A stretch of DNA of 64,000 nucleotides from a bacterium (GTDB lineage: Bacteria; Vulcanimicrobiota; Vulcanimicrobiia; Vulcanimicrobiales; Vulcanimicrobiaceae). Location of the stretch: the NCBI GenBank assembly GCA_021805775.1, contig JAJZED010000014.1:1-64000 (forward strand). The letters run 5' to 3'. Within the stretch, counting starts at the first letter, position 1. The number at the start of each line of letters is the position of its first letter. The position numbers were made by a program, and so were the translations under genes. Under the pieces are notes generated by a model. It had not been told where the DNA came from. It saw only the letters and a list, made by a program, of their open reading frames with translations, and did not search any database. Positions 5,407 to 24,646 of the stretch are shown piece by piece.

Positions 5407-7440
5407 TTGGCAGAGAGCGTGGTGACGACGCCGGGCTTCGTTAGGGAACTCAAGAGTTTCGCTCAGCAGGAGCGGGACCTTATTTTGAAGGCTGTCAATA
5501 TGCTCATGATAAACCCCGACGGCGGCGGTCTGAATCCTGAATATGTCAAGGCGAATCGGAACTACATGACGTTTCGCGCGACGCAGGGAATTCGCATCGT
5601 CGGCTGTCGTACGAAAGGATGCCTGCAACTAGTCGGCGTCGATCGGCATGATAACGCCTATAAGCGGGTGGCGGCGGGTTCTTTTGCTACCCCGAGTAAC
5701 ATTCCAGAGATGGCCGAGCGCCTCTCGGCCGACGCGCTCGATCCGAAGAGGCGCGCCATGCCGACGAGTGGCCCACTAGTCCATTTCTCCGATAACGAGC
5801 TCATTGCTAAATTCGCGATTCCGGAAGACTGGGTTGGAGCGGTGCGGTCGGTGAACGATGCAGAGAGCCTCTGGAGCATCGGGATCGCCAATGTGCTCCC
5901 GGAGGATAACTTCTTCGCGCTTCTTACGATCTTTCCGGAAGTCCCAGTGATCTCGACTGGCGACAAGCCGATTTTTCGGTTTCCAGACGAGGCGCTCGCA
6001 AAAGCGTTCGCTGACGGCGAGATCAAGGAATTACAATTCAACCTTCCGGCTGCATCATGGTCGATTATCGAGAGCACTCGTCGCGCGCCAATTCTGGTAA
6101 AAGGTGGGCCAGGTTCAGGGAAAACTCTCGTCGCGCTCTATCGCGCACTGCACGTCCTGGAAGACCGGGGCCTAGGCCTAGAGGTTGCTCCACGCGTGTT
6201 GTATGTAACGTACACAAATCAGTTGCGCGACGACGCGCGCAATAAGGTCGAACGTCTACGTGGGAAAATACCGGAAAACCTAGCGATCGAAACTTACGAT
6301 CACTTCGCCGTGAGGTATGGCGCTAAAAAGGATCATCGCATTGAGTATGATGTTGCTAATCTCCTTCCATACGTGTTGACGGCCGCAAAAGGAACATCTA
6401 TGGATACAAGCTTCGCGCAGTCGGAAATTGTAAGTATTATAGAAGCGCGCAACGTGCGCACTTTGGAAGAATATCAGAAACTACGTCGACACGGTCGCGG
6501 CGCAGCGCTTGGGCCAAAAGGGCGCGCTACCATTTGGGGAATTTACGAGCGTTACCGAAATGAGCTTGAGAAAAATCGATTAGCTGATATCGGAATCGCT
6601 CGCATGGCCGCGTGCGATTCCACCAAAAATGTTAGCACCACTGAACAATTTGATTTCGTCATTGTCGACGAAGTGCAAGACCTACAAGCATCCGCTCTAA
6701 AGATGATGGTGCACCTTACGCGCGGTAAAGGTACCGCAAAGCATTTGATGCTCGTTGGCGACGCCGGCCAAACAATCCATAGCCGCGGGTTCAGTTGGGC
6801 GGCCGTCGACCTTAGTATAGGCGGCGGCAACGTCCATTCGCTAGGACAGAGCGAACGAAGCACTCAGGAGATCCTCGACTTTGCGCGCGCGCTCTTTGCC
6901 GCGCCAGCCGGCGCGCTCTCTCAGGATATCGAGCAGCTCACCTCTTCGAAGACTGGTGCGCGCCCTCGTATTATAGACGATCTGCCCGCCGAAGACGCGC
7001 TCTATATTCGACTTGTCAAAGATATTCAGGATCGGCTCGACGAGGGCGTTTCGTACACAAAAATCGCAGTGATAGCGCACTCAAAGAGCAAGCTTGCCGC
7101 TATCGCGAAAGCGTTTGAAGGCGCCGGTATTCCTACCGTACAACAAAATCAGGACAACTTTTACACGAAGACTGCCGTGAAACTGATAACCGCTCATAGC
7201 GCCAAAGGGCTCGAGTTTTCCGAAGTCTATATTCCCGACGCAAACGACGGGGTCTACCCGTATTGGACAAACAAGGAGATTGTTGACGCCGACGATCATG
7301 CCGAGAAAAATGTTCAGGACTGTAAGCTCCTATACGTCGCCGCGACCCGAGCGGCCGATCGATTAACCATTGCGTACGTTATTAAGCCGAGCCCAATCCT
7401 TCAGAATGCTCGGAAATTTGCCGAGAGTATCCATTTCTAA
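5407..7440 (+). CDS. RelE/ParE-like domain fused to an SF1 (UvrD-type) helicase
   Basis: The TTG start at 5407 is set by an AAGGAGGG ribosome site at 5396-5403. Residues 1-95 look like a RelE/YoeB-type mRNA interferase fold (FVRELKSFAQQERDLI, YMTFRATQGIRIVGC, VDRHDNAYKR). From about residue 205 there is a complete SF1 motor: KGGPGSGKTLVALY (Walker A), VIVDEVQDL (Walker B), LVGDAGQTI (III), TAHSAKGLEFSEVYIP (V) and LLYVAATRAADRL (VI). Toxin-helicase fusions of this sort occur in defence islands; the mode of action is not established. It ends 54 nt before the tRNA-derived repeat at 7495 and seems complete. Confidence 0.8.
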   Translation: MAESVVTTPGFVRELKSFAQQERDLILKAVNMLMINPDGGGLNPEYVKANRNYMTFRATQGIRIVGCRTKGCLQLVGVDRHDNAYKRVAAGSFATPSNIPEMAERLSADALDPKRRAMPTSGPLVHFSDNELIAKFAIPEDWVGAVRSVNDAESLWSIGIANVLPEDNFFALLTIFPEVPVISTGDKPIFRFPDEALAKAFADGEIKELQFNLPAASWSIIESTRRAPILVKGGPGSGKTLVALYRALHVLEDRGLGLEVAPRVLYVTYTNQLRDDARNKVERLRGKIPENLAIETYDHFAVRYGAKKDHRIEYDVANLLPYVLTAAKGTSMDTSFAQSEIVSIIEARNVRTLEEYQKLRRHGRGAALGPKGRATIWGIYERYRNELEKNRLADIGIARMAACDSTKNVSTTEQFDFVIVDEVQDLQASALKMMVHLTRGKGTAKHLMLVGDAGQTIHSRGFSWAAVDLSIGGGNVHSLGQSERSTQEILDFARALFAAPAGALSQDIEQLTSSKTGARPRIIDDLPAEDALYIRLVKDIQDRLDEGVSYTKIAVIAHSKSKLAAIAKAFEGAGIPTVQQNQDNFYTKTAVKLITAHSAKGLEFSEVYIPDANDGVYPYWTNKEIVDADDHAEKNVQDCKLLYVAATRAADRLTIAYVIKPSPILQNARKFAESIHF

Positions 7441-7494
7441 CTGTAAATCACGCGCCGATAAGTGGTGTCTCCGCAAAGAAGACCGCTCGAGCGC

Positions 7495-7554
7495 TCCTCG
7501 TGATGCTTATTCGTAACCAGCAGGTCAGCGGTTCGAGTCCGCTCGTCGGCTCCA
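7495..7554 (+). repeat. tRNA-Thr(CGT) 3' fragment, attachment-site scar copy 1
   Basis: This 60-bp segment carries the anticodon region (TTCGTAA loop, CGT anticodon), the variable region, the T arm (GGTTCGAGTCC) and the acceptor 3' strand CGTCGGC-TCCA of a tRNA-Thr. No matching 5' half (expected GCCGACG and a D arm) lies upstream, so it is not a functional tRNA gene. It matches 30553-30612 at 58 of 60 positions. The anticodon stem is mispaired here (CTTAT/ACCAG), consistent with decay of an att duplication. Confidence 0.8.
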
Positions 7555-7913
7555 CGAATTGCCTCACGAATTGGGTTTTTTATTTCCCGACTGCTGCAAG
7601 GCGCATGGTGCTGGCACAGAAGTGGCGCAAGCAAGGACGTCAGTCCGCGCGCTCGACCGCCTCTATAGTTCCAAAGGCCTAGGCTCGAAAAGTTCCGACG
7701 ATTAAAGCCGCGGTTTTGAGCCCCGCCGGAAAATCTTACTACTTATCGGCCTTCGATAGCCTAAGGTTCGAAGCCGCCATAAGCCGTCAGTTCGTTTTAG
7801 AAGACGGGGGAATCTCGGTTTGGATTATGCAATAGTTGACGACGCAGTAAAGCGGTCGTCTCTTGAACCAAATCCGTCCGTCTTCTGTCGAAGTGCTGCC
7901 TAGGTGGGTATCA
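7555..7913 (+). other. Non-coding leader region of the drm operon
   Basis: I see no gene in these 359 bp. There is an imperfect inverted repeat around 7749-7775 (CTTCGA ... TCGAAG) and a short direct repeat (CACGAATTG-type) just after the tRNA scar. The drm operon promoter should lie here, but no convincing -35/-10 pair stands out. Confidence 0.3.
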
Positions 7914-10900
7914 ATGGGTGTAGAAAAACCATCGCCGTTAGAGGACCCGAATCCGGACTATCGGGACGAGATCTGTGGCTATTTTGCTCGTCAACTGCTC
8001 GGGCCGTTTGATGGCGCAAACGAGGTGTTGCCAAACGCTCCTCGCACCCGTTACCTTCTCGGCATTCTTTACCCGCAAGAGTCAGCTCCGACAGATTTCT
8101 TATCTGAGGAAGAGATTCAGGATCTATCGGCCGATAGCGGTCTGGGAGCATCTGAACTCGGCGAGGGGCCAACGGACGAAGCAGTTGTCGTAACGAATGA
8201 TTGGCTACCTAGCTCGTTAGGCATCAGTTTCTACTGCACAGCGCGCCGGATACGATGCAAAATCTGGGGCGCCGCCTACGAAGCACAGCGGATCGGAAAA
8301 CGGCAGTGCTGGCGTCGCATCCCGATCTTTGAACGCGAGGCTCCGTCCGAACACATTATTGCCGCTCCGCCTCCGGGAACCACGAGCACACCACCGATTA
8401 AAGCGCTCGGCGATCGCGCCGAGCTTCGAACCGTATGGCGTCCGATTGGCGATGGCTTTCTCGTAACGGTGACTCTAATCAACGCGAGTTCTTTCCCTAA
8501 GTTGAAGAAGTCGTCTTCGAAGAAGGAGCAGCGCGCCCACGATGAGGCTTGCCTTCACCAAATAGGGTTTCGCTGCGAGCCAATAGAGGGGCATATTCCC
8601 GAGTATAAGACGGTAGCGCATGTCGTCCGCGATGACGAAGATGATGAACTGCGCCTTATGTATCGCGATGCGCGCGTCTTCGCCGTTGGACACGGATGTT
8701 CTGTTTCCTGGCCAGTTGGTTCTGCCTTGCACGCCGAACACGTTGAAACGGAACACATTCCTTCATATGAGGTAAGACCGCTCACATACGACCTCGAGGA
8801 CATTGACGGCAGGAAGAAAGACATCGCCGCGATCCTCCACCTGCCCACGCTCATCACATTTGACGTCAACGAGCTAGCGAGACGCCTTAACACGTTTGTC
8901 GACGTGTACGCGGATTGGATAGATCGCATAGAAGGCGTAGATATCCCGGCGATCCACGAAGACGCACGATCGCGAATCATTGGGCGACTCCGAGAAGTGA
9001 CCGCGCGCCTGCGGCGCGGAATAAATTTAATCGAAACGCGCGACGAGGTCTTGCAAGCGTTTAGGCTAGCAAACCGAGCGATGCTTATGCAACGTTATCG
9101 CACGAGAGAGATCATTCAAGATAAGGTTCACGATCGAACAAGAAGACTTCCGAAACAGATTGACTACGTCAGCTACAACTACTCGTGGAGACCATTTCAG
9201 CTTGCGTTTCAACTGCTGACCCTGGAGTCGGTCACCGATGAAAGCGCTCCGGATCGTGATGTAGTGGATTTGATCTGGTTTCCAACTGGAGGAGGCAAGA
9301 CGGAAGCCTACCTTGCAGTTGCCGCCTATACAATTTTCTCCAGAAGACTGCGGGACCGTGAGAAGGGTGCAGGCACTGCTGTTGTAACCCGGTACACGCT
9401 GACGTTGCTGACTGCACAACAGTTTCAGCGTGCCGCAACCATGATATGCGCTTGCGAGCAAATCAGGCTGAACAATCAGCCGGAGTTGGGAGACGCTCCC
9501 ATTTCGATCGGCTTATGGATTGGTGATGAACATACGCCAAACACGACCGTTAAGGCGCACGACAAGTTTCAAGAAGTGCTGGATTCTGATGAGCCATCGA
9601 ACCCATTTAATCTGCACCAGTGCCCCTGGTGCGGAACCGCAATAATCCCGACCAAGAAAGTTAATGATTTCCGAGCGTATGGCATTCGAAGCACTGAAGA
9701 TACATTCGGCTTCTTCTGTGCAAATGATACGTGTGAGTATACCGGTGGCCTCCCCGTTCAGGTCATAGACGACGAGCTGTATCGAAACCCGCCCAGCTTT
9801 CTTCTTGGTACCGTGGACAAATTTGCAATGTTGGCGTGGCATGACAGGCCTGCTGCCTTCTTTGGTTCTGAGGTATTCAAGCCGCCATCCTTGATTATTC
9901 AGGATGAATTGCACCTTTTGTCCGGCCCGCTTGGGACAACCGTTGGCCTATACGAAGCAGCTATTGAAGCGCTGATTGAACTGCGGGGGGCGCTTCCGAA
10001 GGTAATCGCTTCCACCGCAACCATTCGAAGAGCCGGAGACCAGGTAACGGGCTTGTTTGGCCGGCGCCGCACGAGCGTCTTCCCGGCGCCTGGAATTGAT
10101 GCGGGCGACTCGTTTTTTGCTCGTGTCGATACAGAAAGCCCAGGACGTCGCTACGTGGGGGTAATGCCACAAAGTCACTCGACCCAGACCAGCCTCGTAA
10201 ATACATCCGCGGCGCTGCTGCAAGTCGTGCTGGAAATGGAGTTCCTCGACATTGAAGCGAAGGATGCGTACTGGACGCTCGTAATGTATCACAATAGCCT
10301 GCGTGAGCTCGGTCGAACCGTCACGCTCGCGAAGGATGACATCCCGCTCCGCCTCGAGGCTTGGACTTCATCAAGTCCGGAGCGCTGCCGTGACATCAAC
10401 GAAGACAATGTGATTGAGCTTCGTAGTCGTATCGGTAGCGATCAGCTTACAGCGCGCCTGCAGCAGCTGAAGGCAACGATCGGAGACGAGGATTGCCTAT
10501 CGATTGTCGCGTGTACAAATATTTTTTCGGTCGGCGTCGATGTCTCCCGGCTTGGCGTTATGTTAATGAACGGGCAACCAAAATCGACTTCCGAGTACAT
10601 CCAGGCCACGAGCCGAGTGGGTCGCGGAAAATACCCCGGCCTTGTCGTTGCACTGTACGGGCCAACGCGTCCACGCGACAGGTCTCATTACGAGCAGTTC
10701 TTGTCCTACCACTCAGCTTTGTATAAGCATGTGGAGCCGACGAGCGTTACGCCGTTTTCTCCACCATCGCGCGAACGGGCGCTGCATGCTGGTTACGTAA
10801 TACTTATGCGCCACTGGGGTGAGCTAGCTCGAGACGATCAAGCGGGCAGTTTTCGTGCTGGGGACTCGAAGTCGATAGAAGCGCGAGATATGCTTCTCGC

Positions 10901-11159
10901 TCACATCATGCGCGCGGACCCGGAAGAGTATGAAGCATCTAAGAAGCATTTAGACGAACTCATGACGGAGTGGGATGGCCTTGCAGTCGCAGCCATCAAT
11001 AACCGACGCTATTTATACTACAAATCGAGCGGCAAGAGTCAGGCCAACCTCCTCAAAGTGTTTGGCCGCCGAGGAGAGGGCTGGCCAACACTTACCAGTA
11101 TGAGGAGTGTCGATGTACCGTGTCGGGTGTGGGTACTCGGTGAGAGCGACCATCAATGA
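7914..11159 (+). CDS. drmA: DrmA-like SF2 helicase (DISARM core)
   Basis: This protein of about 1081 aa has the layout of DrmA. The N-terminus reads YRDEICGYFARQLLGPFDG. A helicase Walker A, LIWFPTGGGKTEAYL, lies near residue 455. A Cys4-type zinc site (CPWCG with CANDTCEY) sits inside the motor. DELHLLSGPLGTTVGLYE replaces a DEAH box, and NIFSVGVDVSRLGVM with ATSRVGRGK gives motifs V and VI. DrmA with DrmB forms the DNA-translocating core of DISARM, which restricts incoming phage DNA. I prefer ATG 7914, which is preceded by AGGTGG; an in-frame TTG at 7863 would add 17 residues. Its stop overlaps drmB by 4 nt. Confidence 0.87.
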   Translation: MGVEKPSPLEDPNPDYRDEICGYFARQLLGPFDGANEVLPNAPRTRYLLGILYPQESAPTDFLSEEEIQDLSADSGLGASELGEGPTDEAVVVTNDWLPSSLGISFYCTARRIRCKIWGAAYEAQRIGKRQCWRRIPIFEREAPSEHIIAAPPPGTTSTPPIKALGDRAELRTVWRPIGDGFLVTVTLINASSFPKLKKSSSKKEQRAHDEACLHQIGFRCEPIEGHIPEYKTVAHVVRDDEDDELRLMYRDARVFAVGHGCSVSWPVGSALHAEHVETEHIPSYEVRPLTYDLEDIDGRKKDIAAILHLPTLITFDVNELARRLNTFVDVYADWIDRIEGVDIPAIHEDARSRIIGRLREVTARLRRGINLIETRDEVLQAFRLANRAMLMQRYRTREIIQDKVHDRTRRLPKQIDYVSYNYSWRPFQLAFQLLTLESVTDESAPDRDVVDLIWFPTGGGKTEAYLAVAAYTIFSRRLRDREKGAGTAVVTRYTLTLLTAQQFQRAATMICACEQIRLNNQPELGDAPISIGLWIGDEHTPNTTVKAHDKFQEVLDSDEPSNPFNLHQCPWCGTAIIPTKKVNDFRAYGIRSTEDTFGFFCANDTCEYTGGLPVQVIDDELYRNPPSFLLGTVDKFAMLAWHDRPAAFFGSEVFKPPSLIIQDELHLLSGPLGTTVGLYEAAIEALIELRGALPKVIASTATIRRAGDQVTGLFGRRRTSVFPAPGIDAGDSFFARVDTESPGRRYVGVMPQSHSTQTSLVNTSAALLQVVLEMEFLDIEAKDAYWTLVMYHNSLRELGRTVTLAKDDIPLRLEAWTSSSPERCRDINEDNVIELRSRIGSDQLTARLQQLKATIGDEDCLSIVACTNIFSVGVDVSRLGVMLMNGQPKSTSEYIQATSRVGRGKYPGLVVALYGPTRPRDRSHYEQFLSYHSALYKHVEPTSVTPFSPPSRERALHAGYVILMRHWGELARDDQAGSFRAGDSKSIEARDMLLAHIMRADPEEYEASKKHLDELMTEWDGLAVAAINNRRYLYYKSSGKSQANLLKVFGRRGEGWPTLTSMRSVDVPCRVWVLGESDHQ

Positions 11160-12994
11160 GCCGCGCAAATAGAGAGATCAGGATTTCTCAAACGATCGTC
11201 CCGTTCGGCGTCGGCGCGATTTACACAATATTCGGAGAGTCGTTTGTCGCCTGTGACACGGCGCTGTGGCCTAAGGGAATGAACATGCGGAGGGTTCGCG
11301 CGGAAGCACTGCGGCGGTCCCTGGGCGTAGAGGAGCTGCTATCGCCTCTGTCGGCCGACGTAAAAAAAGCCGGGCTACCTTACATGAGGTTTCCCGAGTG
11401 GATGTTTTGCCAGAATAAACGATGTAAGCGTCTCATCAAATGGAATCGGGACGAAGAGAAAATCGGCGAGCCAGCGACGTGCTTCTCTTGTGGGTCAAAC
11501 AAGCCGCTTGCGCCAATGCGTTTCATTTTGGTTTGCAAAAATGGACACTTCGCTGACGTGCCGTGGCACCGGTGGGCCCATGTCGGCAAAGCATTTTGTG
11601 ATAAGCCGAAGGATTTGAAATATGAAGGTGTTAGGGACGCTGGCTCAGGTCTCGCCTCCCTTATTGTTCGCTGTAATACGTGCAAAGCTAGCCGCTCGCT
11701 GAGCGGGATCACATTGACTGATAGTATGCGTGCGCTTGGAGTCGTGTGTACTGGCAAGCATCCGTGGCAGGGTGCTGCGCGCGTCGAAGCGTGTGCTGAG
11801 CCGATGCGCGTTGTCCAACGCGGTGCTAGTAACGTCTACTTTGCCGTGCTGCGGTCTGCCCTAGACATCCCACAGGCTAACGGCGCCATCGAGGACGACG
11901 AAAATGTCGCAGTTCGAAATCATCCCGATTTCGAGCCGCTCCTTCGACACTGGAAAAAGACGGGACATAGGGGCGCTATGGTCGATCCATGCCTCGATTC
12001 AATTGAGACGGACACTGGCATATCGCGACCTCAGATTGTCGCCATCGTGCAACGTGAGCTTACGGAAGCACCCGCGCAAGGCGAATCTGACATCGCGGTG
12101 ACTGAATGGCTGGCGTTGAGAGAAGAGCATGACGAGGAGGGTTATAAATCCCCGCTAATCACGAGGAGAACACCGCTCATGTGGCCGGGAGCCGGTGATA
12201 TTGTACAGCAGATCGCGGATCGAATTAAAGACATAATGCTCGTGACGCGCCTAAAGGAGGCGCGGGCGCTTGTCGGATTCTCTCGCCTGGAACCTGACGC
12301 GCGCATGCTTCGAACCGACTTGACGTCGGCGGGCTCCGCGCGATTGGTGCAATGGGTTCCGACGATCGAAGTATTTGGTGAGGGAGTATTTCTCGAATTC
12401 AATGAGTCGCTGGTGAGAGAGTGGGAACAGCGAAAGCCTGTTATCGCTCGCAGTGAAAAAATGATCGATCGCCTCGAAGGCAGTACCCTCGCAAGCGCGA
12501 TCTTGAAGCAAAGACTACCCTGGCAGCATATCGATGCCCGCTTCATCATGCTCCATAGCTTCGCCCACTTGATTATGCGCGAGCTATGCTATGAAACGGG
12601 ATATTCAAGCGCTGCGCTCTCCGAGCGGGTTTATGCTCGCCCTAGCAGCGATCCCGTTCCGCAGGCCGGCATCTTGATTTATACTGCTGCCGGTGATTCC
12701 GAAGGAACTCTCGGCGGTCTCGTACGGCAAGGTCAAGCTCCTCGGTTAATGAGCTCGATACTCAAAGCGTTGGAGTCAGCGATTTGGTGTTCGGCCGATC
12801 CGCTGTGTCGTGAAAGCGATGGTCAAGGATATGACCGCACAAATCTGGCCGCTTGCCATGCATGTTCCCTGTTGCCCGAAACGAGCTGCATATCGGGAAA
12901 CATGTTGCTCGATAGGTCGCTTGTTGTCGGACCACAAGGAGAGGAAGATCTAGGCTATTTCCCCGATCCAACTTGTTCATTAGGTGACGTATGA
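11156..12994 (+). CDS. drmB: DrmB-like DUF1998 protein (DISARM core)
   Basis: The 612-aa product opens with ISQTIVPFGVGAIYTI, the typical DrmB start. A zinc-ribbon-like region follows near residues 83-140 (CQNKRCKRLI, CFSCGSN, LVCKNGHFADVPWHRW). A C-terminal DUF1998 domain contains LHSFAHLIMRELCYETGYSS, GDSEGTLGGLV and a Cys cluster (NLAACHACSLLPETSC). DrmB binds DrmA, and together they engage unmethylated or 5'-end-bearing phage DNA in studied DISARM. ATGA overlaps join it to drmA upstream and to the next gene, so it sits inside one transcription unit. No damage is visible. Confidence 0.87.
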   Translation: MSRANREIRISQTIVPFGVGAIYTIFGESFVACDTALWPKGMNMRRVRAEALRRSLGVEELLSPLSADVKKAGLPYMRFPEWMFCQNKRCKRLIKWNRDEEKIGEPATCFSCGSNKPLAPMRFILVCKNGHFADVPWHRWAHVGKAFCDKPKDLKYEGVRDAGSGLASLIVRCNTCKASRSLSGITLTDSMRALGVVCTGKHPWQGAARVEACAEPMRVVQRGASNVYFAVLRSALDIPQANGAIEDDENVAVRNHPDFEPLLRHWKKTGHRGAMVDPCLDSIETDTGISRPQIVAIVQRELTEAPAQGESDIAVTEWLALREEHDEEGYKSPLITRRTPLMWPGAGDIVQQIADRIKDIMLVTRLKEARALVGFSRLEPDARMLRTDLTSAGSARLVQWVPTIEVFGEGVFLEFNESLVREWEQRKPVIARSEKMIDRLEGSTLASAILKQRLPWQHIDARFIMLHSFAHLIMRELCYETGYSSAALSERVYARPSSDPVPQAGILIYTAAGDSEGTLGGLVRQGQAPRLMSSILKALESAIWCSADPLCRESDGQGYDRTNLAACHACSLLPETSCISGNMLLDRSLVVGPQGEEDLGYFPDPTCSLGDV

Positions 12995-14148
12995 AGCTGC
13001 CAGCCTATAAGCTTCTATCGAAGGAGCAGGACCGCGTGAACAATCTCCCTCTCGATGGGTCTTATATTGTGGCTGGTCCCCCGGGAACCGGGAAAACCGT
13101 GGTAGCACTTTACCGGACGTCTCTACTCCAAAAGGAGCGGCAACAAGTACAACTCTTAACATATTCGCGCGTCCTTACGAATTATTTAGGAGCAGGAGTT
13201 GCAGATTTGAACCTCGCGGCCGGCGCCAGCACGTATCACCGCTGGGTTGACAACGAGTGGAAGGCTTTGAATCGTCGTAGAACGGATGGCGCTAAGCAGT
13301 GGAAAGTGCCAAATACTGGCGACTGGTACTCGTACGATTGGAACGCGATTCTGGATGCCGTCAACGAATTTCCTCCGGAGAAAGGAGGTCTTCCGTATCT
13401 AATTATCGACGAAGCGCAAGATTTTCCACGGGACTTTTTCAAGCTGGCCCGCTTCATTGCAAAAAATCTGACAGTATTCGCTGACGAAAATCAAACACTC
13501 ACCGATGAGAACTCTACAATAGCAGAGATACGCTCCGCGGCTGCGATTACGGCAGAGACGTTCTTTCTGACGAGGAACTACAGGAATACGCGGCAGATTG
13601 CAAGATTAGCGGGCCATTTCCACTCAGGCCTTCAAACAGGTATTCCGGAGCTTCCCACGCGTTTTGGTAAGCCGATCGTTCTCCAGGAAATGACGCCGGC
13701 TCAAGGCATCGATAGAATCTTGCGTTACCATGCTCTAAGGCCTTCGGCCGAGATCGGCGTTTTTTTGCCGACGATTGCAAAGGTGAAGCATTATGTTGCC
13801 GAGTTTTCGGAAAAGATAAAGAAAAAAGGCGCGATCCAGTACTACTATCGCGACAAGAAGGGCCCCCAGGACACCCTCAACTTTGAAAAGCCTGCAATTC
13901 GCATTCTCACATACAAGAGCGCAAAGGGGCTCGATTTCGACGCCGTATTTATACCCGAATTGGAGCGGTATGCTGGTGATGAGAATGGTGGCACGACTAG
14001 AATGCTGTTTTATGTGCTTCTTTCCCGCGCACGTGAGGAGTTGTTCCTCTTTTTTCACCGGAAGAGGTCAGGGCTGGTGTCCCTTATTGAGCAGTACATG
14101 GCTGAGGATGCGCCTATCAATGAACGGGAGCAAAGTGAAGTACGATGA
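12991..14148 (+). CDS. Minimal SF1 (UvrD/Rep-like) helicase in the drm operon
   Basis: This 385-aa protein has a full but compact SF1A motor without the usual large 1B/2B insertions: VAGPPGTGKTVVALY (Walker A, near residue 28), LLTYSRVL (Ia), LIIDEAQDFP (Walker B), VFADENQTL (III), LTRNYRNT (IV), LTYKSAKGLDFDAVFIP (V) and FYVLLSRAREEL (VI). ATGA overlaps couple it to drmB and to the next gene. It takes the position held by drmC or other accessory genes in classic DISARM. Its role (loading, remodelling or signalling) is unknown. The SF1 assignment is firm; a link to DrmAB is inferred from coupling. Confidence 0.8.
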   Translation: MKLPAYKLLSKEQDRVNNLPLDGSYIVAGPPGTGKTVVALYRTSLLQKERQQVQLLTYSRVLTNYLGAGVADLNLAAGASTYHRWVDNEWKALNRRRTDGAKQWKVPNTGDWYSYDWNAILDAVNEFPPEKGGLPYLIIDEAQDFPRDFFKLARFIAKNLTVFADENQTLTDENSTIAEIRSAAAITAETFFLTRNYRNTRQIARLAGHFHSGLQTGIPELPTRFGKPIVLQEMTPAQGIDRILRYHALRPSAEIGVFLPTIAKVKHYVAEFSEKIKKKGAIQYYYRDKKGPQDTLNFEKPAIRILTYKSAKGLDFDAVFIPELERYAGDENGGTTRMLFYVLLSRAREELFLFFHRKRSGLVSLIEQYMAEDAPINEREQSEVR

Positions 14149-15791
14149 AACGACCTTCTGGACGAGAGATGACCTTGATTGCGGCGGCGGATGAGCAACC
14201 GAAAAGGCGATCCTCGAAAAAACAACCCGGTGCACCGACGCCTCAATTGGAAACTGGCAGCGCTGCAGCGCCGACCCCTTTGACGCCGAGGTTGTACCTG
14301 TTAACGAACAACTTCAATATGCTGGACATCTTGGCATCCGGCTATGCGAAGCCTCGATCGGCGTACGGGAAGTACTACGAGGATTTACTTAGGTTCGCAG
14401 ACGGCTGGGTTCCTCTGGTGCCTGCTCCCGTTGACGGCGCATTGCAAAACGCCGTCTCTACCGAGCAGCTTTCTTTTCCGATATTGATTGAAACAAATGA
14501 TCTCAGCATCCCGTCTACCGCCCCTGAACCGTTTCACGGCGTGCACTTGATAAGGGGAGCCGTGCCGGTTTCTTTGATGAAGACCTTGCACTTTCGAAAC
14601 GACCAGGAGTGCATTAGATTTTATTCTCGCGAGTATGAGGGAATCGACTTCTCGCTTATCTCTGGTCAGGTGTCACCAGAACTCTTTTCTGAAGCGGTAG
14701 CATCCGGCAACCACGTGCTTCAAGCCTTGCAAAGAATGGCAGACGCTGAAATGCCGGAGAGCGGCGTGTACGGGGAGTACGATCGGAAAGCCGGAGCGCT
14801 TGCAGCCTTACTTGCGTTTCGCCACTATACAAGAGACGAAATCGCTACCGCATTGACGCTTTATAATATCGAAAAAACTCCAATTGAACGGCGAGATGCA
14901 ATGACGGCCCTTGGGTTTCCCGCAGTGGATCTTCTAACGTTGAAGGTGGATGAAAATGCCAGCCTCGATGACCTGCTCTTTGCCATTACGCTGCGCAGGT
15001 TCGAGGCGGTAGATCGTGCGGTTTCATGGGATCCGATAGCAATCCTTTCGCATATTAGACGAGATTTTGATGAGCGTCGGCCCGCCGCCTCGAATGCAGA
15101 ATCGCTGGAGTCAGTATTCACCTACATTCATCGGGTCCTCACTCTGGACGCCGAGTTCCGACCTTTCAAGCGCGACTCAGGACACGCGGCTGGGAAAGCT
15201 CTGTTGTTGGCACTTCTCCGCCCGAACATTCGCGAGTTTCTTAACTGGCCTCGTTCTGAAACTGGCTCTGATGATATAACAGATGCTATTGCTGCGACGT
15301 TGATCGGCACGCTCTCGGGGCTTCAACTGTTGCCTCTGTCGGTGCGTCCTCCGGAGGTGGCGCAGTTTTTATCGATGTGGCAGGCGGCTGTTTTGAACAC
15401 TGGCATCAAGGCAGCGCTGCCGATTGCGGTACCGGCGGCGGGTACGGTGGTAGATGACATCATAAAGGCGTCTTGGCAGGTAAGGTCACCGGCCACGGTG
15501 AGCTATCACAAGCCTGCGGATTCTGTCTCAGGTCAGATCACAATAGAAGACCTTGTGAAAAAAGGTTGGACCGAGTGCATCATCACTGTCATTGATGCGG
15601 CGCCAGTTGGAAGCGTAGAGATATCCACCGCGACCGAGAAAGGTCGTGTGCGCATTCAATTGCGCGGAACGGCCATTATGCGACATGAGGTTGACCGTGA
15701 AGCGACGGCACGTCGCATGTCCGCGCCTGAAGGGGGCGTCGCGGCTCTAAAGGGTACGAAGGCGAAATCAAAACAACATCGACGGCCTTGA
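14145..15791 (+). CDS. Unrecognised 548-aa protein of the drm operon
   Basis: I do not recognise this protein. It begins with a basic, low-complexity tail (DEQPKRRSSKKQPG), followed by TPRLYLLTNNFNMLDILASG, AYGKYYEDLLRFADGWVPLV and several helical stretches, and it ends in another Lys/Arg-rich tail. The early segment faintly recalls the start of DarT-type ADP-ribosyltransferases (a strand, then a helix and an xxGxxKP turn), but no catalytic residues can be assigned. No Walker, nuclease or membrane motifs are seen. It overlaps the SF1 helicase gene by 4 nt and is followed 24 nt later by the nuclease-helicase, so it is an integral member of the cassette. Confidence 0.7.
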   Translation: MKRPSGREMTLIAAADEQPKRRSSKKQPGAPTPQLETGSAAAPTPLTPRLYLLTNNFNMLDILASGYAKPRSAYGKYYEDLLRFADGWVPLVPAPVDGALQNAVSTEQLSFPILIETNDLSIPSTAPEPFHGVHLIRGAVPVSLMKTLHFRNDQECIRFYSREYEGIDFSLISGQVSPELFSEAVASGNHVLQALQRMADAEMPESGVYGEYDRKAGALAALLAFRHYTRDEIATALTLYNIEKTPIERRDAMTALGFPAVDLLTLKVDENASLDDLLFAITLRRFEAVDRAVSWDPIAILSHIRRDFDERRPAASNAESLESVFTYIHRVLTLDAEFRPFKRDSGHAAGKALLLALLRPNIREFLNWPRSETGSDDITDAIAATLIGTLSGLQLLPLSVRPPEVAQFLSMWQAAVLNTGIKAALPIAVPAAGTVVDDIIKASWQVRSPATVSYHKPADSVSGQITIEDLVKKGWTECIITVIDAAPVGSVEISTATEKGRVRIQLRGTAIMRHEVDREATARRMSAPEGGVAALKGTKAKSKQHRRP

Positions 15792-15815
15792 CGGGGAAAG
15801 GTCGACAGGTTTGCG

Positions 15816-17789
15816 ATGATAAAGTTGGTGGGTGATCTTGAAGGCAGTGAGTATGAGGCCGCGTGTGAGCTTAGAGAGTCTATAGCGCGAGCATGGCCGG
15901 ACATTGCAGACGATCGAAATAAATTGGATGAGATCATTATTGTAATAGGTGGCCAGATCTTTGGAGGAGCCGTTCAAGATCTAGATCTCGCGGTTCTTCT
16001 ATCTCTATCGCGTAGCAGAATCGTCAAATCCTTAACACGGGTTCGGGCGGATGATACGCCATATGAGTTTGGCGTCCAGCACGCCTGTATCTTAATTGAG
16101 GTGAAAGATCACTCGAAAGCCACGCAAAGCGTTCGGTTTCAAGGCGGGAGCGTCATGGTGCGGTATGGCGAGAAATGGCACAACGCCACGAAGCAGTGCG
16201 CTGCGCAAGTGCGTGTGCTAAAGGCCCTAATCGAAAATATCGGCGCGATTCCGCCGTTTGTCCACGGCCTTGTCTGGCTCCGAAATCTTGAAGAGGACGA
16301 GCATCCGGGCTTTCTTACGAATAATCTAGCTGGACGCGAGCTTGACTGGCAGAGTCTGCTGGATCAAGCGGAGGCGGTTCACCCGGGACAATTCGCACGA
16401 TATGCAAACAACGGCTCCGCAGGGCAATTTCGTCATATTTTCGATGTGCTAGCGCGAACAAAAGAGGTTACGCCACTCGATCGCCGGCGCATGGACGAAG
16501 TGATTCGATCAGGCATTCCCCAGAGCCTTGTGGATGTCGTCGGTAGAAAGATGCTCGTGCTTCGTGGTCACGCAGGCTCCGGAAAAACGGCGACCCTGTT
16601 GCGGTTGGCGTACAGCTTGCATCTCGATCAGAATGCAAAAGTTCTGATTCTAACGTATAACCGTGCTCTAGTTGCTGATTTGCGAAGACAGCTCGACTTG
16701 TTGGGAGTCCCCGCAGCAGTTCAATCAAGAGGCATTCACGTCGAAACCGTCCTCACGTTCTTTACAAAGTGGCTAAAAAATGACATCAGCGGTGTGGACT
16801 ACGAGCAGCCAGGAGGTCATTTTGACAATATGCTATATTCGAAAGCGGTGGACGAGTGCCTCAAGTACGTCTTAAATGGCGCCATTACGGGTCGAGACAT
16901 CGCGGAAGCAAAAGATGAAGAGCATACGGGACAGGAACTCTCTTGGACCTATGTACTCGTGGACGAGGGCCAAGACTCTCCAAAGAATGAGCGCGATTTG
17001 CTGCGGGGACTCTACGATTGCCGCTCCATTATTGTGGCCGACGGCATTGACCAACTGGTGCGTCAGAATCCATTGTGCGACTGGACGGAACGCTTGGACC
17101 CCTCGGTTAAGGCCCACATAGAGCAGCTTCCCGAGTGCAGGCGAATGCAGAGCGGACTGGTAGATTTCTGTAATGCCTTCGCTTCAAGGCTTGGTCTTCA
17201 TGGATCGAAACTGAAGCCTAGTTCCCAGGTCGCCGGGGGCCGGATAATCGTCATTGAAGGCAATTATTTCGCTGACAGATCACTGCACGACGAGCTACGG
17301 TCCGGAAATGCCAAAGCTGGCAATAAGGGTCTCGACATGCTTTTCTGCGTTCCTCCATCGTGGGTTGAAAGGGGGCGCGAAGGCGAAAAAGATTCCACGG
17401 CGGCCAAGCGTCTAAGGCTGTGGAACGAGAAAATTTGGAATGGTGTCTCCGACCTTGAGAGAATTCAATTTCCGTTGGATGTTGAGCAACTACGAATCGT
17501 CCAGTACGACTCGTCTCGTGGACTGGAAGGGTGGGTCGTAGTCAACTTTGCGTTCGACGACTTTTTCGCATATAAGTATGAAACTTGGGAGCCTCTAGCC
17601 GTTGATGGCGTGGCGGTGGACAAGGAGCAAGAACGGCATAAATTTGCAGCAGCCTGGTCGATGATTCCGTTGACGCGAGCAATGGAGACACTGGTAATTA
17701 GCGTCGGTAAGCACGACTCACCGGTCAAATCCGCATTACGAGCAACCCAATCGGTTTTGCCGGAGATCGTCGAATGGCGTACCCTGTAG
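15816..17789 (+). CDS. NERD-like nuclease fused to SF1 helicase
   Basis: The N-terminal 170 residues resemble a NERD/PD-(D/E)xK nuclease: IFGGAVQDLDLAVLL supplies acidic residues and CILIEVKDHSKAT supplies the ExK element. From about residue 245 there is an SF1 motor: LRGHAGSGKTATLLRL (Walker A), VLVDEGQDSP (Walker B), IIVADGIDQLV (III), ECRRM (IV), YDSSRGLEGWVVVNF (V) and PLTRAMETLVIS (VI). A GGGGAAAGG ribosome site precedes ATG 15816. It is the last gene of the coupled drmA-drmB cassette and gives it a plausible DNA-degrading activity. The IS element begins 63 bp after its stop, leaving the gene whole. Confidence 0.8.
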   Translation: MIKLVGDLEGSEYEAACELRESIARAWPDIADDRNKLDEIIIVIGGQIFGGAVQDLDLAVLLSLSRSRIVKSLTRVRADDTPYEFGVQHACILIEVKDHSKATQSVRFQGGSVMVRYGEKWHNATKQCAAQVRVLKALIENIGAIPPFVHGLVWLRNLEEDEHPGFLTNNLAGRELDWQSLLDQAEAVHPGQFARYANNGSAGQFRHIFDVLARTKEVTPLDRRRMDEVIRSGIPQSLVDVVGRKMLVLRGHAGSGKTATLLRLAYSLHLDQNAKVLILTYNRALVADLRRQLDLLGVPAAVQSRGIHVETVLTFFTKWLKNDISGVDYEQPGGHFDNMLYSKAVDECLKYVLNGAITGRDIAEAKDEEHTGQELSWTYVLVDEGQDSPKNERDLLRGLYDCRSIIVADGIDQLVRQNPLCDWTERLDPSVKAHIEQLPECRRMQSGLVDFCNAFASRLGLHGSKLKPSSQVAGGRIIVIEGNYFADRSLHDELRSGNAKAGNKGLDMLFCVPPSWVERGREGEKDSTAAKRLRLWNEKIWNGVSDLERIQFPLDVEQLRIVQYDSSRGLEGWVVVNFAFDDFFAYKYETWEPLAVDGVAVDKEQERHKFAAAWSMIPLTRAMETLVISVGKHDSPVKSALRATQSVLPEIVEWRTL

Positions 17790-17919: not shown

Positions 17920-18360
17920 ATGGCAGACCAACGGCGGAAATTTCCGCGTGAGTTGAAGATCGAGGCGGTACGCCGCGTTATCGACAGTGGTGAGACCGCG
18001 ACGGAGATTGCGCGGTCGATCGGTATAGATCCGAGCCTTTTGTATGGGTGGATGCGCCGGCTCAAGGCTGAGGATAAAGAAGCGTTTCGTGGCAATGGGA
18101 AACTTACCGCGCAAGATGAGGAGATTCGTCGCCTTCGGCGACAGCTTGCCGATGTAAGTGAGGAACGGGATATTTTAAAAAAACGGCAATTGGGTTCGCG
18201 AAGCAATCGCGGTGAGATATGCCTGTATTCAAGAACATATCGGCGTGTGGCGGGTGCGCTTGATGTGCCGCGCACTGAATGTTTCGCCGTCCGGATTTTA
18301 TGCATGGCAGCAGCGGCTGCCGAGCGCGCGAACGACGCGAGACGGCGTGCTTCGCTTTGA
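17920..18360 (+). CDS. IS3-family transposase OrfA (helix-turn-helix)
   Basis: The first about 88 residues are a normal OrfA: KFPRELKIEAVRRVIDSGET with a helix-turn-helix (ATEIARSIGIDPSLLYGWMR) and a leucine-zipper-like helix (EEIRRLRRQLADVSEERDIL). A run of seven A (18177-18183, zero-frame TTA AAA AAA C) is the expected slippery site for a -1 shift into the OrfB frame. Beyond it the zero frame runs on to 18360 without family resemblance. The main product is probably the OrfAB fusion. Confidence 0.82.
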   Translation: MADQRRKFPRELKIEAVRRVIDSGETATEIARSIGIDPSLLYGWMRRLKAEDKEAFRGNGKLTAQDEEIRRLRRQLADVSEERDILKKRQLGSRSNRGEICLYSRTYRRVAGALDVPRTECFAVRILCMAAAAAERANDARRRASL

Positions 18361-19078
18361 GGTCGTTACTCTCCACCGCAAGAGCCGCTCTCGATATGGC
18401 AGTCGACCGATCGTACGCGATCTCCGCGATGGCGGCAAACGCGTTTCCCGCCGTCGCGTCGCCAAGCTGATGCGGGAAGCCGGCATTCGCGGCAAAACGC
18501 CTCGTGCATTCAAGGTGACCACCGATTCCAAACACGGCAAGCCGCTCGCCGGAAATCTGCTCGAACGACACTTCGCTCCAGCGGAAATCGAAGCGCCGGA
18601 TCGCGTGTGGACCAGCGACATTACCTACCTGCGTACGCGCGAGGGCTGGCTCTATCTCGCCGTGGTCCTCGATCTTTTCTCGCGGAAGATCGTTGGCTGG
18701 TCGATGAGTCATCGACTTGAGTCGCGACTCGTGCTCGACGCGTTACAAATGGCGGCAGATCGTCGCGCCGTTGAGCAGACGCTGCTCGTTCATTCCGATT
18801 GCGGGGTGCAGTATGCCAGCGATGCGGTTCAGCGCTTTTACGACCGAAACGGGATGCTCTGCAGAATGAGCCGCAAGGGCAACTGTTGGGACAACGCGGT
18901 GACCGAGAGCTTCTTCGCGACGCTCAAGCGCGAACTCGACGATCCGACCTTCGAGTCCCGGGAATCGGCGAGGGCGATCGTTTTCGGCTACATCGAGATC
19001 TGGTACAATCGGCAACATCGGCACTCGAAGCCCCGATACGTCAGCCCCGAGCAGTTCGAAAAGACTCAGGCTGCGTAA
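18212..19078 (+). CDS. IS3-family transposase OrfB (DDE integrase domain)
   Basis: OrfB carries HTH_21-like RLMCRALNVSPSGFYAW followed by the rve integrase core. The DDE residues are visible as VWTSDITYL (D), LVHSDCGVQY (D) and NAVTESFFATLK (E). In the -1 frame reached at 18177-18183 it is continuous with OrfA, so translation likely starts upstream by frameshifting; ATG 18212 is only the first Met inside the frame. No stop or deletion is seen, so the element may be active. Confidence 0.87.
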   Translation: MRYACIQEHIGVWRVRLMCRALNVSPSGFYAWQQRLPSARTTRDGVLRFEVVTLHRKSRSRYGSRPIVRDLRDGGKRVSRRRVAKLMREAGIRGKTPRAFKVTTDSKHGKPLAGNLLERHFAPAEIEAPDRVWTSDITYLRTREGWLYLAVVLDLFSRKIVGWSMSHRLESRLVLDALQMAADRRAVEQTLLVHSDCGVQYASDAVQRFYDRNGMLCRMSRKGNCWDNAVTESFFATLKRELDDPTFESRESARAIVFGYIEIWYNRQHRHSKPRYVSPEQFEKTQAA

Positions 19079-19179: not shown

Positions 19180-19285
19180 ACCTACCTTCGGGAAGCGGTA
19201 TCCGCAGGCCTAGTGGCGAACGCCCGTTCGGCCACAGAATATTGGGATGATGTGGGGATAATCCGTGAATAGGAGCGAAGAATCT

Positions 19286-20392
19286 GTGAACGTGAGCGGA
19301 GAGCCCGGCCTCTACGTGGCTGACCTCTTTGCGGGAGCAGGCGGTCTGACCGAGGGCTTCCGCCATGCTGGCTACACCGCCGTTGCCGCTGTCGAGTTCG
19401 ACCGATGGGCGGCCCGGACGTACGCCGCAAACTTCGGCGACCACATATTCGCGTGCCCCATCGAAGAGGTCACCGTTTCGCGTTGCGATGGTGCTCTTGC
19501 GTGGACCGGCAAGGACGAATATGGCAACGACCTCTCGTTCGAAACGCCCGAAATCGATGTGCTGGTTGGCGGAGTTCCTTGCCAGGGTTTCAGTCCACTT
19601 GGGCGCATGAACGATTGGGATTTCAACGACCCGCGTAACAAACTCTGGAAGCACTACATGCGCGTGCTCGATGCGGTCACGCCGAAGGTGTTCGTTATAG
19701 AAAATGTGCCGGAGATTCTGAAGTCTGAAGAATTCGAACGGTTGAAACGGCATTTGCGCCGATTGGATCATGGATACGAGCTCGCATACGGCGTGCTCAA
19801 CGCGTCGTTCTATGGCGTTCCCCAAAGCCGCAGGCGCGCCACCATAATCGGGAGTAGAATCGGGCGCCCGACGCTTCCACCGGAGACGCTTGAACGCCGC
19901 ACGGTGCGCGATGCCATAGGTGATCTTCCTTCGAAGCCTGATGGAAAAAATTGGCATTTAGCACGCAATCCTCTACCAATGTCGTTAGAGCGTTACAAGT
20001 GCATCCCTGAAGGTGGAAATCGCTTTGACCTGATGCGAATGCGTCCCGACATTACTCCGACGTGCTGGTTGAAAAAGAAAACCGGCAGCACCGACGTGTT
20101 CGGTCGCATGTGGTGGGATGAACCCGCTCCGACGATTCGCACTGAGTTCTTCAAACCGGAGAAGGGGCGCTATCTGCATCCGAAAGCGCATAGGCCCATC
20201 ACTATTCGGGAGGCTGCACGTCTCCAAACATTTTCCGACGAGTTCACCTTTGTGGGATCACACGTTCAAGTAGCGAAGCAAATCGGCAACGCAGTGCCGA
20301 TCAAGCTCGCAGAGGTGATTGCAGCGCACCTTCGCGCAACGCTACTTGCAGAGCGACCGAAGAAGAGAGAACGCGTAGCCGTAGGGGGATGA
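19286..20392 (+). CDS. C5-cytosine DNA methyltransferase (Druantia II DruM / R-M type)
   Basis: All main C5-methylase motifs are present: DLFAGAGGLTEGF (I, AdoMet), GVPCQGFSPLG (IV, catalytic Cys), FVIENVPEIL (VI), QSRRRATIIG (VIII), TIREAARLQTF (IX) and KQIGNAVP (X). It would protect host DNA by 5-methylcytosine. GTG 19286 is preferred, with AGGAG 10 nt upstream; GTG 19265 would add seven residues. It overlaps vsr by 4 nt and heads a cassette that also contains an NgoMIV-like nuclease remnant and a DUF1998 helicase. It may serve a type II R-M unit, Druantia type II (which includes a cytosine methylase), or both. Confidence 0.88.
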   Translation: MNVSGEPGLYVADLFAGAGGLTEGFRHAGYTAVAAVEFDRWAARTYAANFGDHIFACPIEEVTVSRCDGALAWTGKDEYGNDLSFETPEIDVLVGGVPCQGFSPLGRMNDWDFNDPRNKLWKHYMRVLDAVTPKVFVIENVPEILKSEEFERLKRHLRRLDHGYELAYGVLNASFYGVPQSRRRATIIGSRIGRPTLPPETLERRTVRDAIGDLPSKPDGKNWHLARNPLPMSLERYKCIPEGGNRFDLMRMRPDITPTCWLKKKTGSTDVFGRMWWDEPAPTIRTEFFKPEKGRYLHPKAHRPITIREAARLQTFSDEFTFVGSHVQVAKQIGNAVPIKLAEVIAAHLRATLLAERPKKRERVAVGG

Positions 20393-20802
20393 CTCCTCGC
20401 AAGAAGCCGCTTTCCAAAAGCGAGCAGATGTCGCGTGTGAAGTCTCGCGACACTGCGCCTGAAATGCTCGTGCGGCAATTTTTATCCAAGTGCGGCGTTC
20501 GCTATCGGTTGCATCGCAAGGATCTCCCGGGCCGTCCTGACCTCTACATTCCGCGTCTTCACCTGGCGTTGTTCGTAAACGGGTGCTTTTGGCACGGCCA
20601 CGGGTGTCGTCGGGCAGCTCGATCCAAGACGAACGTAGATTTCTGGACTCAGAAGATTGCCCGAAACAAGGCTCGGGATCGGGCCACCGGTGAGGCGCTG
20701 CGGGCAATGGATATTGAGACGTTGACGTTATGGACTTGCGAACTGGATGCGTTTCCAAAAGCATGTCGCGACATCATGCGGCGATACGAACGCGAATCGT
20801 GA
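20389..20802 (+). CDS. vsr: Very short patch repair endonuclease
   Basis: The 137-aa protein has the Vsr family pattern: SRVKSRDTAPEMLVRQFL at the start, LPGRPDLYIP with the catalytic Asp, and LFVNGCFWHGHGC. Vsr nicks next to the T of T:G mismatches produced by deamination of 5-methylcytosine, so it normally accompanies a C5-methylase. The ATGA overlap with the methylase gene fits that pairing. Family length is about 130-155 aa, so it is complete. The usual HGCFWHGH is NGCFWHGH here, a mild variation. Confidence 0.88.
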   Translation: MTPRKKPLSKSEQMSRVKSRDTAPEMLVRQFLSKCGVRYRLHRKDLPGRPDLYIPRLHLALFVNGCFWHGHGCRRAARSKTNVDFWTQKIARNKARDRATGEALRAMDIETLTLWTCELDAFPKACRDIMRRYERES

Positions 20803-20874
20803 TGACCGCGAAACCCGTTGGATGAGCCGCTGATCAGGCGGCTCTGTTCAGTCGATTTTCGGCGAGCGTATAGT

Positions 20875-21995
20875 ATGTCGTCGTTCGAGGAGCTTCGCAA
20901 GCTACGTCAGCGGTTTTTAATGGGCCTAAAGTCCCAGGTTCTCTTCGAACGCGAATTTACCGAGAAAATGAAACCGACGCTGGCGAAGGGCATGTTTCCC
21001 GACGGTCAGCAAGGCAGGATCAACGTTGCCGACCTCTCCAACTATGGAAGTTCGCGAATCGGCTGGGAGTGGCGGCGTAAACTTCCCAGCGAGTTCCATG
21101 AAAAAAAACATCAAGGGACAAACTACGGGAGATCGTTTTACTTCAGCGATTAAAAAAATATCTCGAACTCGGCGTATCTCGCTGCCGAGAGCTTCGGCCC
21201 ACGAATTGGCGTCACACGTTCGACGAAACGTACGTGGGCAAGAAGGCGAAGTCGAAGGCGAAATGCCCTCGAATAAAGGCATCCGAATTCGCGCGGCATG
21301 CGCACTTGAGCAAGATCAAGGAAACTTGCGAACACCGGCCGGATCTTGAGGCCCTATTCGGCTCAAACTACATAGTAGAGCCGAATATCGTGGTTTTCAG
21401 CGCGCCGCTATCGCCAAATTTGCTTGGAGGTAGGCTGAAAGAGCCAGTCACGACGGTTTCGCCATTGATTTTCGATGCGGAGTTTGCATTGGGCGCCCCG
21501 CTTCTTCATGCGAGCGTTTAGTGAAAGTTGACGATTCGCTCCGATCGTGCGCAGAACACGCGTCCCGAAGCGCGGAACTTCATTCGCACGCGCAAGGGGC
21601 GCGTCCCAAACATGATTTTCATCACGACGGAGCCGCTTCCATCGCGCATTTCGTCGCTTGCGTTGAGAACGGGCGATGTTTATTGCATATACCACGCCAG
21701 CCTTTACGAATTGAAAGACGCGGTAGAGGCCGCAATCGCCTTTGGGATAGACCGACTTCCGGCCGACGATGTTAGCGCCGATCCTCGTCTTGGCTTGCTC
21801 GAAACCGAACCAGAAAGGGAGGAAGACGCGGATAAGCGCGCGACTGAGGCCACACCGACGAAACGCCGACTGGAGCCCCAGCGCGACCGCTTGAACAACA
21901 TGATCGCGCAGGGGAAATCGCGCGACTTCGGGAACTTATATCGCGCCTCCGATGAGGACCTCAAGGTCCTCGCGGCTCGCATCCGGCCCGAATAG
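20875..21995 (+). pseudogene. NgoMIV-like type II restriction endonuclease, two lesions
   Basis: ATG 20875 opens MSSFEELRKLRQRFL. At the A8 run (21101-21108) one extra A would restore continuity into KLREIVLLQRLKKYLELGV, which continues as KKAKSKAKC and ALFGSNYIVEPNIVVF to LGAPLLHASV. Two stops in a row (TAG TGA at 21519-21524) follow, and the same frame resumes with KLTIRSDRAQNTRPEARN, GRVPNMIFITTEPLPSRISS and CIYHASLYEL. The last part closely resembles NgoMIV-family enzymes, where SxKWTIRSDR holds the catalytic Lys, so the stops sit in the active site. Relatives cut GCCGGC. As sequenced the gene is dead; assembly error at the homopolymer is possible. Confidence 0.65.
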
Positions 21996-22154
21996 GAGAG
22001 ACGGCCCATTTTTGGCCTTCCAGGAATTACCGGCCCTGACTCCGCCGAACCCTCGACCTGTCTGCCGTACGGCTGGCTCCAGCGGGGTTAAGTCCTGCCT
22101 TAAGTATGGGTGTACGATGTTTAGCGATGGGCACGGGCCCAGCAAGGCGATGAG

Positions 22155-23750: not shown

Positions 23751-24646
23751 TCGACCCGCTTCTGCGCTATTTTCGATTGAAGGGGAGAGGTTCTTGGTCG
23801 TCGTTTGCCAGCGCCGTTGAGGCTTTTGCTCCCGACCTTGACGGGCGAAGTCTGGCGCGAGGTCTTTCGGAGCATTCCCTGATAGAGTTCGACTATGAGC
23901 GTTTGACCTGGAGTGTCGCGCCGACAACAATTGTGTCGGTCCGACAGCAATCTGGTGGCCGCGCCTTCTCCGCCTGGGGAGGCTCAATGCGACCGATCAA
24001 GGACGTTGAACTGCTTTTCGAACCCGGGACGAGGACGATTCACACATGGTCAGGCGACGTCGAATACAGTCACGCCCTACGAATTAAGCAACCTTCGGCG
24101 GGTTGGCCGCGTAGTTGGGAGCCTACGGAAGCAGATGGGGTTCGCGATCGCCTTCCGACTCTCGACGCCGTACTTTACCGGAGCGGGAGCCTTGAATCTC
24201 GTCGTTCAGGCGATCCGTTGGAATTTCATTTCCACTCGCTTTCTCGGGTGAGCGACGGCCAGCCCGCCCGTTGGGTTGAAGTACGCTACGGAGCGCGCCG
24301 CTCCATCGATACGGCATCACCATCCCTTTGGCGATTGCGGCACGGAAGATTCGTCTATACGGAAAACGGGCGAGCCGCAAAGGTTTCCTTCGAGGTCGGT
24401 GCTTGGCTTGCGTTTCGCGCCTGGCTTCGCATGAATGGCGTGGAACGCGGTCTCGCTTACGACGAACAACGTAAGGCGCTGTACATATCGGCCGCACCGT
24501 ATTTGCCGGTGCCCTATGTACGTGCCCTTATGATGTCCGGCGCACGCGAAAGCGCCTACGTGGGAGACAAGATCCGCGTCTTCCATAATGTGGATGCATC
24601 TCTACGTGATTGGTTCGGATCACTCGTCGGCATCTCTTCATACTGA
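23744..24646 (+). CDS. Uncharacterised 300-aa protein of the methylase-DUF1998 cassette (Druantia II position)
   Basis: I place the start at ATG 23744, which overlaps the preceding stop (ATGCTGA), rather than upstream in-frame codons. The N-terminus (DPLLRYFRLKGRGSWSSFASAV, here shown from residue 3) resembles a winged-helix segment. The rest is beta-rich with repeated aromatic strands (LFEPGTRTIHTW, RHGRFVYTENG) and ends in FHNVDASLRDWFGS. No catalytic signature is seen. It is followed 10 nt later by the large helicase gene, with a GACAGGAGA ribosome site in between. By order it fits a DruF/DruG component; the function is unknown. Confidence 0.65.
   Translation: MLIDPLLRYFRLKGRGSWSSFASAVEAFAPDLDGRSLARGLSEHSLIEFDYERLTWSVAPTTIVSVRQQSGGRAFSAWGGSMRPIKDVELLFEPGTRTIHTWSGDVEYSHALRIKQPSAGWPRSWEPTEADGVRDRLPTLDAVLYRSGSLESRRSGDPLEFHFHSLSRVSDGQPARWVEVRYGARRSIDTASPSLWRLRHGRFVYTENGRAAKVSFEVGAWLAFRAWLRMNGVERGLAYDEQRKALYISAAPYLPVPYVRALMMSGARESAYVGDKIRVFHNVDASLRDWFGSLVGISSY

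Follow-up and report, generated by a model that had tools for sequence, protein, structure and literature searches.

The locus examined here raises the question of what a protein of 548 amino acids contributes to a gene set in which it directly follows DrmA, DrmB and a short SF1 ATPase. The original prediction for the window (the whole stretch of DNA analysed, 64,000 nucleotides long) called this protein an orphan locked inside the drm operon. Neither part of that description held up: the protein is a recurring partner of the short SF1 ATPase, with relatives at seven other loci, and in one of these (genome G381) the SF1-partner pair is present without drmAB.

The gene and its surroundings

Judged by its sequence relationships, the frame of the 548-aa protein is a genuine gene and not a chance reading frame, because tblastn against 72,556 plasmids gave one match (E 4e-6), a hypothetical protein of Deinococcus gobiensis plasmid P4 whose gene lies in an identical arrangement, DrmA-DrmB-SF1-partner, and because BLASTP linked it to four relatives, in D. 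gobiensis (1.5e-13) and in genomes G979 (5.9e-10), G360 (2.7e-8) and G1118 (3.4e-7). The antisense frame is rich in stops, which leaves the opposite strand closed. The start codon lies in an ATGA at 14145-14148, a 4-nt overlap with the upstream SF1 gene, and overlaps of the same type occur at the drmA/drmB, drmB/SF1 and SF1/548-aa gene junctions. The translational coupling that had been proposed is thus borne out, as is the location in a drmA/drmB operon, through the PADLOC and PDB matches of the two drm genes (Table 1). The gene of the 657-aa SF1 protein starts 24 nt downstream of the 548-aa gene. The UvrD helicase gene on the other side is an uncertain member of the operon, with a gap of 422 nt before drmA.

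Table 1 Genes of the window around the 548-aa protein and in the neighbouring Druantia-like set
Feature	Position	Strand	Matches and remarks
UvrD helicase, 677 aa	5407..7440	+	N-terminus may be RelE/ParE-like (Pfam ParE-like_toxin E 0.028, under the cut-off)
DrmA, YprA-type SF2 helicase	7863..11159	+	PADLOC 2.1e-213; PDB 7s9v_A 7.5e-160
DrmB, MrfA Zn-binding/DUF1998 type	11156..12994	+	PADLOC 4.9e-73; PDB 7s9v_B 3.7e-70
Short SF1 ATPase, 385 aa	12991..14148	+	Helicase motifs intact; HelD/UvrD-type named matches
SF1-partner protein, 548 aa	14145..15791	+	ATG start; the protein under study
SF1 protein, 657 aa	15816..17789	+	May carry an N-terminal NERD-like nuclease (Pfam NERD E 0.01-0.05, under the cut-off); EVK motif seen by eye
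Vsr endonuclease	20389-20802		Pfam 2.2e-26
DruF-like gene	22155-23750
DEAD helicase, 1805 aa	24588-30005		Occupies the place of DruE

The short SF1 ATPase resembles HelD/UvrD/GajB-type SF1 ATPases, which are its named matches (HelD in NCBIfam, 5e-17, and in the PDB, 1.7e-7; NERD+UvrD C3a187, 4.2e-17, and GajB, 2.6e-10, in PADLOC). Unlike HelD, it is only 385 aa long and matches the ATPase parts alone. Among the six genes at 5407-17789, Pfam and PADLOC detected neither a PLD nuclease (DrmC) nor a methylase, and none of the six encoded proteins contains the PLD motif HxKxxxxD.

An IS3-like transposase pair (17920-19078) separates, by eye, the DISARM-like genes from a Druantia-II-like set at 19265-30005. 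The latter opens with a C5 methylase gene at 19265, the best PADLOC match of which is DruM (5.6e-104), with DrmMII as a lesser one (1.9e-53). A second DrmB-like gene of the same genome is located near a contig end (C25:125-1855, E 1.7e-47).

Relatives and gene order

The family and its gene order are well supported. At all eight loci, the window included, the partner gene comes directly after the short SF1 gene, although this adjacency is partly built in, since most of them were retrieved with SF1 as bait; the D. gobiensis copy came from a search that did not use it. The order DrmA-DrmB-SF1-partner is present at seven loci (the window, the D. gobiensis plasmid, G360, G979, G1118 and two Photobacterium plasmids). 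The partner gene likewise overlaps the SF1 gene at seven of the eight, the start codon in G1118 having been chosen by the analyst; in Photobacterium damselae, the two genes are 32 nt apart. With the SF1 bait, the window's own genome was the only match among 149 of its phylum (E≤1e-22), and at least three genomes matched among 388 relatives, its own included. The bait matched at least 5 of 400 genomes in the phylum of G208, one of them strongly (L115), and at least 17 of 395 in that of G210. A partner stood next to SF1 at two of the 17 loci of the latter phylum, in G979 and G1118, and was recognized there by a profile built without either (E 5.3e-12 and 7.3e-35, respectively). At L115, DrmA and DrmB are present, and the SF1 frame ends early (profile positions 1-307 of 384), with the contig ending 190 nt further on, which cuts off the stretch where a partner gene would lie.

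The company of the pair varies. In G360, the four genes DrmA, DrmB, SF1 and partner stand alone by eye, and so does the set in G1118, where SF1 and a partner of only 391 aa, without the C-terminal region, follow a fused DrmA-DrmB. As the set occurs alone in these two genomes, the partner and SF1 seem to belong to its core rather than to be cargo. In D. gobiensis and G979, a gene for a NERD-SF1 protein precedes DrmA (NERD 1.5e-7 and 2.2e-12, respectively). On both Photobacterium plasmids, DrmA, DrmB and SF1 are followed by a gene for a protein of 467 or 483 aa. The P. damselae protein was matched at 3.3e-13 by a profile built without it; the second was unmatched by this profile at E≤0.1 and was included through its 35% identity to the first (E 4e-102). 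Aligned as a pair to the partner profile with hhalign, they gave 96.6% and E 5.7e-10 over 234 columns, and 29.6% and E 5.7e-4 with a thinner profile. In G381 (L016:10895-13081), a methyltransferase-like gene (weak Pfam match, E 0.015) and SF1 precede a gene in which the partner is joined to a 2OG-Fe(II) dioxygenase (Pfam 1.8e-20), which we take to be AlkB; BLASTP relates this partner to that of G360 (4.6e-6), and neither DrmA nor DrmB occurs in the 19.5-kb stretch around the pair. The fusion suggests a role in nucleic-acid repair or demodification at least there. On Streptomyces fungicidicus p1, no partner is annotated behind DrmA-DrmB-SF1 and the partner profile found no match in that stretch, which argues against the partner being indispensable.

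Two further features of these loci may be recorded. The fused DrmA and DrmB of G1118 form a single ORF of 1673 codons (L138:4043-9061). Adjoining the four-gene operon of G360 is a CBASS-like pair (L015:4952-7470; patatin 5.2e-30, SMODS 1e-31).

The protein of the window has basic tails, as had been noted (net charge +4 for aa 1-48, +5 for aa 525-548 and -11 for the core). Their use as a sign of nucleic-acid contact was rejected, since they are not common to all relatives: among five relatives (G979 and G1118 left out), the N-terminal tail is basic in none, and the C-terminal end is mildly basic in D. gobiensis and both Photobacterium proteins and not in G360 or G381.

At other loci, SF1 is followed by different proteins. 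A protein of about 585-690 aa with an N-terminal motif like 'SESISPxxFYxxRGYG' comes next at L020:7881-11034, L143, L144 and L145; hhalign E-values of 0.016-0.088 were not accepted as making these proteins remote relatives of the partner. At L116, L117, L146, L147, L152 and L153, a DarT-type protein follows, with an ADP-ribosylglycohydrolase at five of the six (by Pfam at L116 and L117, by eye at L146, L147 and L153). The two DarT-type genes of the G208 phylum are recognized by Pfam (DarT 4.8e-18 and 1.5e-23), and each is followed by the glycohydrolase gene.

Several searches added no member. Scans of genome contigs with short peptide patterns revealed no homologue. In viral contigs, pattern P0001 hit L002, by eye a phage-like transposase locus and a chance match, and the other pattern scans returned distant SF1s, the same contig or nothing. 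Five Vibrio plasmid matches of one Photobacterium protein cover 16% of the query, and the one inspected, a gene of 93 aa, adjoins an IS5 transposase; they were set aside. The G360 and G381 copies had no match among plasmids, and the L020 protein had none among plasmids or phages. In a Deinococcota-like phylum (so classed by eye), 0 of 111 matched; this set holds no known positive, so that the empty result proves nothing.

Conservation, fold and competing explanations

The 548-aa protein matched nothing in Pfam, PADLOC, NCBIfam or the PDB at E≤1; PHROGs gave a single noise match (E 0.093), profile searches of the PDB gave noise only, and five relatives matched no PADLOC family at E≤5. The DISARM accessory proteins DrmD and DrmE, for which PADLOC presumably contains models, likewise gave no profile match (E≤1). 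The protein thus remains without an assignable motif, as had been stated, and in the libraries searched, no DISARM subunit or housekeeping family matched it with confidence. AlphaFold, run without an alignment, reached a pLDDT of 35-36 for the whole protein and for aa 45-200, which speaks neither for nor against a fold.

Conservation of both proteins was compared over one set of four genomes (window, D. gobiensis, G360 and G381), with three alignments for the partner. In the SF1 protein, 53-55 columns are invariant, 19 of them polar, and the helicase motifs are retained. The partner keeps 18-19; its polar invariants are R359 and R401 in every alignment, joined by E107 in one of them. Among all eight partners, M1, Y77, P112, A352, L355 and G392 are invariant (a second eight-way alignment gave the same without P112), Y77 being the only polar residue. 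The catalytic cluster for which conservation mapping had been proposed is not evident: it appears unlikely because the partner keeps two to three invariant polar residues against 19 in SF1, and the pattern points to a role in structure or binding, with the reservation that alignments at 17-27% identity may conceal a shifted catalytic residue.

These observations bear on the idea that the partner is an enzyme that replaces DrmC, either a modifier or an effector nuclease, whose active site evolves fast. Its gene does lie close to the position of DrmC in DISARM (PMC12458937), and no other nuclease is apparent by eye in G360 and G1118; with so few invariant polar residues, and the HxKxxxxD motif in none of the six proteins of the window set, we nevertheless regard this as improbable. 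We hold it to be just as improbable that the partner is an immunity or regulatory protein which restrains the SF1/DrmAB motors until it is released on phage DNA. The one-to-one coupling with the motor gene and the lack of an evident active site would suit such a protein, but the dioxygenase fusion in G381 would be odd for a pure inhibitor. A third explanation takes up the remark in the original prediction that the N-terminal segment recalls DarT-type folds. The N-terminal ~150 residues would then be a catalytically dead DarT-type ADP-ribosyltransferase fold that reads ssDNA fed to it by the SF1 motor, which seems to us rather unlikely. Elements occur in a like order by eye (Y..T.N.N...L..G / P-I-L-I / P...I..I.V..DE), and distant SF1s precede DarT-type proteins at two of five loci in the G208 phylum and four of 17 in the G210 phylum (15 of the 17 scanned). 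In hhalign, the eight partners scored 35.3 against ten DarTs (E 0.00086, 24%), above the maximum of 20.2 in 25 decoy comparisons (the 'SESISP' set, a possible remote relative, scored 13.7), and the 28.5 obtained with a six-partner profile was reached in 0 of 150 column shuffles (maximum 18.4), albeit that column shuffling is a lenient null.

That similarity is weak, however, and confined to a short segment. Nine profile pairs were compared, with E falling as the profiles deepened, from null values for the thinner pairs (0.4, 0.23, 0.13 and 0.11) through weak intermediate ones (0.0092, 0.0076 and 0.023) to the best; a separate run on slightly different alignments gave E 0.0036 at 9%, and the two Photobacterium proteins by themselves scored 16.3, within the range of the decoys. 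Where E was below 0.1, 38-74 columns around 'P...I..I.V' were aligned, and the N-terminal motif, matched by eye only, was never reached. DarT had, moreover, been picked as the target because the earlier prediction named it, and Pfam DarT (PF14487) matches none of six members scanned (the window protein and five relatives; G979 and G1118 left out). E164 of the QAE motif, which we take to be the catalytic residue, is invariant in all nine DarTs aligned and replaced in the partners at the aligned place (exact placement by eye), so that what is left of the DarT remark is at most a possible dead ADP-ribosyltransferase fold. DarT is an ssDNA thymidine ADP-ribosyltransferase. Like the DarT proteins found beside SF1 and an ADP-ribosylglycohydrolase, the partner comes immediately after the SF1 gene; it is unlike them in its larger size, its long middle region, a C-terminal region in most copies and the absence of that Glu. 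It is unlikely, in our estimate, that all these loci hold a single two-gene cassette of an SF1 motor and an N-terminal ART-like reader swapped among immune contexts, namely DrmAB, the dioxygenase fusion, the 'SESISP' proteins (in Bacteroidota-like genomes) and active DarT with ADP-ribosylglycohydrolase, the DrmAB form being an inactive transferase that detects phage DNA in single-stranded form and does not modify it.

Proposed role and comparison with known systems

We favour, as close to an even call, the reading in which the partner serves a DISARM variant as an adaptor or sensor subunit without catalytic activity. The analysis shows the gene order, the overlaps, the co-occurrence, the intact ATPase motifs and the scarcity of catalytic residues that are widely conserved, from which binding, sensing and a function in defence are inferred. 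The short SF1 ATPase and its dedicated 548-aa partner would form one translated module that is plugged into DrmA-DrmB. As in DISARM, DrmAB would load onto the ends of phage DNA or onto ssDNA, and the SF1 motor would travel along the same DNA; the partner would grip SF1 and the DNA (or DrmAB) and set the time at which the motors fire. DNA destruction, where it occurs, would be carried out by the accompanying NERD nuclease-helicase, or else the defence would be a plain block of replication. The G1118 copy without a C-terminal region, the partnerless set of S. fungicidicus p1, the dioxygenase fusion in G381 and the low identity of the alignments argue against this adaptor reading. A compact form that combines DrmAB, a second motor and a single recurring partner would offer a small testable system of three to four genes for the coupling of DrmAB to an outcome, and the variant connects defence of the DISARM type with SF1 modules that elsewhere bear DarT or a dioxygenase.

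Titles and abstract openings in the openly licensed literature contained no description of this gene set as a DISARM variant with UvrD/SF1, with NERD or of a third class, nor of AlkB or DarT with UvrD. For ARMADA type II, a UvrD helicase of GajB-like type that begins with a RelE-like part has been described (PMC12458937), and the UvrD gene of the window has a layout similar to this ArmD type, with a possible RelE/ParE-like part below the Pfam cut-off. Unlike ARMADA type II, the window has a YprA helicase that matches DrmA and is separate from DrmB, and Pfam found no SNF2/BrxHII-like helicase or PglX-like methylase in the ten window ORFs scanned.

The adjacent DrmA and DrmB of the window show clear homology to the DISARM pair of known structure. 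In DISARM, the gene of the PLD nuclease comes after that of the DUF1998 protein (PMC12458937), whereas DrmB of the window is followed by SF1 and the 548-aa protein, with no PLD motif or methylase in the six genes. Another account states that DrmC is often missing from DISARM, that this nuclease is reportedly dispensable and that the less-conserved subunits are unexplained (PMC9142583). The window set is best read as a DrmAB core of the DISARM type joined by an SF1-partner module, a rare and scattered variant in which the SF1-partner pair occupies the place of the usual DISARM nuclease.
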